Notes under the pieces: model-generated
What the model was told of the DNA's origin: nothing
What the model saw: only the letters and a program-made list of their open reading frames with translations
Databases searched by the model: none
Assembly: GCA_964035015.1 (NCBI GenBank)
Contig: OZ035998.1
Span: forward strand, 20,481,227 to 20,545,226
Reading direction: 5' to 3'
Origin: Corallium rubrum
Taxonomy: Eukaryota; Cnidaria; Anthozoa; Scleralcyonacea; Coralliidae
DNA length: 64,000 nucleotides
Shown: positions 10,347 to 55,991 of the stretch, piece by piece
Numbering within the stretch: the stretch's first letter is position 1
Layout: the number at the start of each line of letters is the position of its first letter
Made by a program: the position numbers and the translations under genes

Positions 10347-10505
10347 TTACTCTTCATCTTCATCTGAGGCTTGCGCTGTACCGTCGTTTGATATTGGAAG
10401 AAATCGGCTTTTGGATGGTACTTTCCGTTTGGTCTTCTTCTTTTTCTTTCTCACTTTACTTTTAACAACTTTGGCAAAATCTTTTATGTCTTCCTTTTGT
10501 GTTGC
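10347..10505 (-). CDS. Dystrophin-like exon 10: terminal exon
   Basis: 52 codons plus [21 protein letters not shown] matches dystrophin GEDVRDFAKVLKNKFRTK just after the ZZ domain. A lysine-rich run and an acidic end (DEDEE) follow. Acceptor catcatag. The stop overlaps a good donor (GAAGA|gtaaga), so an alternatively spliced longer C-terminus is possible; no coiled-coil exon was seen to the left. Confidence 0.85.
   Translation of the reverse strand, partial: ATQKEDIKDFAKVVKSKVRKKKKKTKRKVPSKSRFLPISNDGTAQASDEDEE

Positions 10506-55991: not shown

Follow-up and report, generated by a model that had tools for sequence, protein, structure and literature searches.

A Locus of Corallium rubrum Probably Carries a Second, Apparently Rodless Gene of the Dystrophin Branch

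Introduction

The dystrophin isoform Dp71 presumably keeps its partners at the membrane with no spectrin-type connection to actin. Among the established interactions of dystrophin are the binding of its WW-EF-ZZ end to the tail of beta-dystroglycan (PMC4582122) and the pairing of its coiled coils with dystrobrevin (PMC1790709). The dystrophin of Ciona has two spectrin repeats and has been compared to DRP2 (PMC1790709), the longest sponge dystrophin is described as having only six repeats, and the rotifer dystrophin seems to be split into two proteins (PMC10293626). The part of this 2023 review used here states that invertebrates contain no dystrophin paralogue and that the dystrophin complex diversified only in vertebrates, with the exception of dystroglycan (PMC10293626). 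No second dystrophin gene of an invertebrate is reported in the titles and abstract openings of the literature that we searched, although this proves little.

Here we describe a locus of the cnidarian Corallium rubrum. The window, i.e., the whole stretch of 64,000 nucleotides that was analysed, is part of contig C8, and genome-wide protein family searches took in 474 Mb in 312 contigs. We propose that the dystrophin branch is probably represented by a second gene, most of which falls in the window; this gene is separate from the orthodox dystrophin gene and would encode a Dp71-like membrane adaptor.

Results and Discussion

Exon structure of the gene

The dystrophin-like gene on C8 comprises 13 minus-strand exons in the window (from 48536 to 6955) and two more past its left edge, and these 15 exons encode WW, EF-hand_2, EF-hand_3 and ZZ domains and two coiled coils. 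The original prediction was of ten small exons that keep the reading frame when joined and code for WW, EF-hand-like and ZZ-like parts; size (10 of the 13 exons in the window are under 100 bp), phase and domain content were borne out, and the count had to be raised to 13 plus the two outside. The exons were located by local tblastn with the C-terminus of human dystrophin as the bait, and by family searches, as follows.

Exon A, 48479..48536, minus strand: first half of WW; 58 bp, phase 1 start, GT donor; the acceptor GAG keeps the frame, and a competing TAG 4 nt upstream leads to an in-frame TGA
Exon B, 39396..39457, minus strand: second half of WW; 62 bp; tblastn E 8.7e-4; GT-AG, phase fits
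Exon C, 38363..38437, minus strand: linker helix; 75 bp; tblastn E 0.051
Exon D, 33079..33283, minus strand: EF-hand_2; 205 bp; genome search with PF09068, E 3.2e-7; also tblastn
Exon E, 32015..32100, minus strand: end of EF-hand_2; 86 bp; tblastn E 0.067
Exon F, 29806..29885, minus strand: start of EF-hand_3; 80 bp; tblastn E 0.017; weak donor (gttttt)
Exon G, 26899..26976, minus strand: middle of EF-hand_3; 78 bp; tblastn E 0.017
Exon H, 16843..16954, minus strand: end of EF-hand_3; 112 bp; genome search with PF09069, E 4.0e-7; also tblastn
Exon I, 14607..14661, minus strand: ZZ part 1; 55 bp; tblastn E 4.4e-5
Exon J, 12627..12666, minus strand: ZZ part 2; 40 bp; genome search with PF00569, E 1.8e-4
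Exon K, 12457..12528, minus strand: ZZ part 3; 72 bp; tblastn E 7.7e-9
Exon L, 10351..10505, minus strand: post-ZZ region; 155 bp; tblastn E 0.010; donor GTAAGA
Exon M, 6955..6993, minus strand: DDEHQLISYY motif; 39 bp; its own tblastn E is 15, so that its position rests on the motif, the splice sites and the phase
Exon N, C8:20474872-20474958, outside the window: coiled coil; tblastn E 0.027
Exon O, C8:20473133-20473316, outside the window: coiled coil; tblastn E 1.1e-8

With this bait, twelve colinear minus-strand matches extend from 48522 to 10392 (E from 7.7e-9 to 0.067), and the best unrelated weak match in the same search (E 0.34) ranks behind all twelve. Furthermore, exons D, H and J were matched in genome-wide family searches that were aimed at no particular place; all three matches are on the minus strand, and two of the three cross a stop codon where the frame exits the exon. 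The genome-wide WW search yielded 25 matches, all elsewhere and none at this gene, because here the domain is split over two exons.

All 14 exon junctions are of the GT-AG type, with consistent phases and colinear order (splice sites chosen by eye, exons joined by script). The joined coding sequence has 1388 bases, which make 463 codons once a placeholder base completes the first one, and with the chosen sites it is free of stops and frameshifts. For exons A and N, the acceptor was picked because an AG 4–5 nt upstream would give an in-frame TGA; by eye, three acceptors are possible for exon A.

The introns contain very long simple arrays, namely 444 copies of the unit TAGCAGTA (window 21510-25061) and 187 copies of CGGGA (window 10834-11773). 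The G-H intron holds a plus-strand ORF (window 18400-18957) that matches DUF4371 (E 2.2e-10), a family that we take to be related to hAT transposases, and is followed by a 346-aa ORF (19039-20079). SIAQWLERL-type readings on the minus strand of the A-B intron (window 48361-48400 and 40542-40691) resemble pieces of a dispersed repeat.

Both ends of the gene and the upstream neighbourhood

The gene had been taken to be complete at 10347, and this end can be discarded: the TAA found there lies within the splice donor of exon L, and the coding sequence continues through exons M, N and O into the coiled coils. Exons N and O are found in the 10 kb past the left edge of the window, where half of the letters are N, and by eye the last exon may extend for 31 more codons to a stop that is soon followed by AATAAA.

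Exon A, with its start in phase 1, has to be joined to some upstream exon. The proposed first exon of six codons at 55991 was not rejected but is a chance-level candidate: the 15.4 kb that hold it contain two candidates whose donors are no weaker, and 12 such blocks per strand upstream contain on average 0.92 of them on the minus strand and 1.25 on the plus strand. The divergent neighbour that had been predicted was not found among single ORFs upstream, a search that a multi-exon neighbour would escape. Upstream of exon A there are 104 ORFs of at least 100 aa, after low-complexity ones were dropped. Ten ORFs, eight of them upstream of exon A, were compared with Pfam; four of the ten matched a family at E of 0.01 or less, one of these (BRCT) below its cut-off, and the three of the four that lie upstream of exon A are at least 100 kb distant. 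No Pfam match was obtained for the plus-strand ORFs upstream within the window (52674-53066 and 59439-59753) or for a 182-aa plus-strand ORF past it (67531-68076 in extended coordinates). The nearest long upstream ORF (483 aa; C8:20558872-20560320, or 77646-79094 extended) lies on the same minus strand, 29 kb upstream of exon A, contains repeated KLSGxPW-like modules and has no Pfam match.

Placement in the dystrophin branch

In the joined exons A-L, Pfam identifies EF-hand_2 (E 7.8e-31), EF-hand_3 (6.6e-29), ZZ (9.4e-17) and WW (8.5e-7), all four above their own cut-offs, and a PDB search with the same exons matches dystrophin with E 2.4e-98 (query residues 3-335) and dystrobrevin with 2.9e-46. 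The C8 protein is 42.9% identical to human dystrophin over 459 columns and 43.0% identical to fly dystrophin over 446 columns, compared to 33.5% over 272 columns for dystrobrevin. In a tree of 8 rows, two of them less than half filled, with dystrotelin sequences not included (524 of 658 columns), the protein groups with dystrophins against dystrobrevins (support 100/99). Inside the dystrophins, it falls outside the rest (91/94, not starred) and has the longest end branch; a sister position to the C32 dystrophin described below is not rejected (p 0.078), and a sister position to fly dystrophin gives p 0.041.

The two C-terminal coiled coils are of the dystrophin type (tblastn E 1.1e-8 and 0.027; aligned), the ZZ domain retains all three CxxC pairs and, by eye, the WW residues are retained as well. 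Exons B (62 bp), C (75), E (86), F+G (158), H+I (167) and J+K (112) have the sizes that we take human dystrophin exons 63, 64, 66, 67, 68 and 69, respectively, to have; on the same footing, A is 3 bp shorter, D is 3 bp longer and L is 18 bp longer. The C8 gene would thus have three additional introns, which fall inside the counterparts of human exons 67, 68 and 69. Judged by its sequence, the gene is a member of the dystrophin branch. Assignment to the dystrobrevins was rejected: the gene has a WW domain and is closer to dystrophin both by PDB E value and in the tree.

The gene is very unlikely to be the dystrotelin of this genome, i.e., a representative of the third branch of the superfamily. 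Most invertebrates studied are said to have one member per branch (in the part of PMC1790709 used here) and the gene is indeed short and diverged, but dystrotelins are described in the same source as having no WW domain and C-termini that cannot be aligned to dystrophin (PMC1790709), whereas the C8 gene has a WW domain and dystrophin-like coiled coils, and is closer to dystrophin than to dystrobrevin.

An orthodox dystrophin and a dystrobrevin elsewhere in the genome

A search for a full-length dystrophin elsewhere had been suggested together with the original prediction, and an orthodox dystrophin gene with spectrin repeats was found on contig C32. Its WW halves and linker are 67-84% identical to the human bait (84% over 19 aa for one WW half), and its EF-hand_2 is 31.5% identical (E 1.7e-11). 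Spectrin-like exons start no more than 10 kb upstream from its WW exon (best E 4.3e-8); among the 54 listed matches of the genome-wide spectrin family search, six are on C32, spread over 58 kb (C32:3263843 to 3322148), with four of the six over the cut-off. Downstream there are post-ZZ and coiled-coil exons (E 2.2e-12 and 5.5e-13). The searches recovered no EF-hand_3 or ZZ exon of the C32 gene, and a stretch there reads N.

Given that C32 holds an orthodox dystrophin, complete with a WW, an EF-hand_2, spectrin repeats and coiled coils that belong to it, the gene on C8 is a separate locus, which largely upholds the earlier suggestion of a stand-alone gene as opposed to a product of an internal promoter. 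A split gene, with C8 supplying the missing C-terminus of the C32 gene, was rejected because C32 has post-ZZ and coiled-coil exons of its own, although EF-hand_3 and ZZ are absent from the exons recovered there. The two proteins are 42.1% identical over 133 aligned columns. A further gene, on contig C25, is 51.1% identical to human alpha-dystrobrevin over 178 columns and looks like a dystrobrevin.

Decay after duplication of the C32 dystrophin, which would make the C8 gene a pseudogene, is in our estimate highly improbable. The C8 gene is the more changed of the two, with 39.8% identity to human dystrophin against 56.9% for C32 over the same 123 columns, and its splice signals include the doubtful acceptors of exons A and N and the weak donor of exon F; nevertheless, with the chosen sites all 1388 joined bases remain open and GT-AG junctions are kept throughout, as are the three CxxC pairs of ZZ and the WW residues.

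Search for a rod and an actin-binding domain

The original prediction was that the gene lacks spectrin repeats and an actin-binding domain. For the repeats it agrees with the searches, as far as absence can tell: no spectrin match was found nearby. No CH match was found nearby either, in a search that gave none on C32. None of the 54 listed matches of the genome-wide spectrin search, in which 150 of 175 candidates were scored, is on C8. A human spectrin-repeat bait applied to 264 kb gave, apart from WW, a best match with E 2.8. Local phmmer on the window plus 200 kb, i.e., 215 kb upstream of exon A, reached at best E 8.1 in 11330 ORFs, compared to 8.2 in 11687 ORFs of the reversed-sequence control. 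The phmmer control L040 was recovered, although the queries included exons of L040 itself. The C32 baits recovered further spectrin genes of the genome weakly (L042 with E 0.11, L041 with E 9.1); since these controls were barely recovered, the sensitivity to diverged repeats is modest. Among 24 genome-wide CH matches, those on C8 are all near 40.14 Mb and none is on C32, where the CH part of the orthodox gene was missed as well.

The absence of matches argues for a short, rodless gene. It could instead be a second long dystrophin whose spectrin repeats escaped the searches through divergence or distance upstream, in which case the window covers its C-terminal half. Such a gene would supply the upstream splice partner that the phase 1 start of exon A calls for, in keeping with the unsupported first exon and with the limited sensitivity apparent from controls L042 and L041. 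We nevertheless consider this unlikely, in view of the lack of any listed spectrin match on C8 or of any match above the control across 215 kb, the start of the C32 repeats within 10 kb of the WW exon, and the presence of the same-strand 483-aa ORF 29 kb upstream of exon A. A separate, rodless gene remains our preferred reading.

Dystroglycans and other loci

The genome contains two dystroglycan genes, each with a membrane helix (by eye) and a tail in the reading; one tail ends in RLPPPYVAP and the other in PPPPYKLPPSY.

L045, C1:35713837-35714523: dystroglycan gene
L046, C1:32445130-32445894: dystroglycan gene

At a third locus (C53:4293985-4298856), dystroglycan-type modules are repeated, with six matches, three over the cut-off and three weaker; a dystroglycan-type protein of Nematostella likewise has six modules (PMC4582122). 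As for paralogues of dystroglycan, the part of PMC5216574 used here mentions them in fish and lamprey alone.

The 97 kb contig C129 is mitochondrial-like and has one full-length cox1 match (L043, C129:59766-61106) and several partial ones. In the part of L043 that was read, TGA is absent and AGA accounts for six of the nine arginine codons; all six align with arginine in PDB 7jro (labelled COX1), which we take to be a plant enzyme. The use of AGA for arginine fits poorly with a mitochondrial code like that of vertebrates or of most other bilaterians. The L043 motifs PRRYSDF and FFPQHF are presumably animal-like, and the 7jro row differs there.

Proposed function

We propose that the C8 protein would be a Dp71-like membrane adaptor produced from its own gene. 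By analogy with dystrophin, its WW-EF-ZZ part is a putative dystroglycan-binding module, the target of which would be a C-terminal tail with proline and tyrosine, and the coiled coils would pair with dystrobrevin. Candidate partners are the two dystroglycans described above and the dystrobrevin-like gene on C25. In the absence of a rod, the partners would be held at the membrane with no spectrin-type tie to actin.

A more speculative extension, to which we give little weight, is that the genome might run two dystroglycan-dystrophin axes, an orthodox one combining the C32 dystrophin with the dystroglycan that has the RLPPPYVAP tail, and a derived one combining the rodless C8 protein with a diverged dystroglycan that has the PPPPYKLPPSY tail. 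If so, the second axis would serve adhesion or signalling as a complex with no coupling to actin. The boldest version of this scheme would make the C8 gene a relic that predates the joining of the full rod: it branches outside the rod-bearing dystrophins in the tree, albeit with support that is not starred and on the longest end branch, and with a sister position to C32 not rejected.

Comparison with known systems

Given that short dystrophins are already known (Ciona, DRP2, Dp71), the C8 gene is a variation on a known theme. With Dp71, it shares the stretch from the WW side to the coiled coils and the apparent lack of spectrin repeats; Dp71 also has no actin-binding domain. The promoter of Dp71, however, lies inside the large gene, between the WW-encoding exons 62 and 63 (PMC1790709). 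The C8 gene, in contrast, is found at a separate locus and has both halves of WW. DRP2 is similar in being a separate short gene of the dystrophin branch alongside a long one, but it keeps two spectrin repeats, whereas none was detected before the WW domain on C8.

The Ciona dystrophin is also short and has WW, EF and ZZ parts; it differs in keeping repeats 23 and 24, in being encoded by a single exon and in its degenerate C-terminus, and the account used here describes no long dystrophin alongside it (PMC1790709). The orthodox dystrophin on C32 resembles the C8 gene in its WW, EF-hand_2, post-ZZ and coiled-coil exons, and differs in having spectrin repeats. Dystrotelin and DAH are comparable as short, fast-changing members of the superfamily, but they are described as having no WW domain and an unalignable C-terminus (PMC1790709).

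A cnidarian with two dystrophin genes, one orthodox and the other apparently rodless, runs counter to the statement of the 2023 review on invertebrates (PMC10293626). It would amount to a natural experiment in which the dystroglycan-binding end acts with no mechanical rod and is encoded by a separate gene; in vertebrates, this end is studied as Dp71, an isoform of the large gene.
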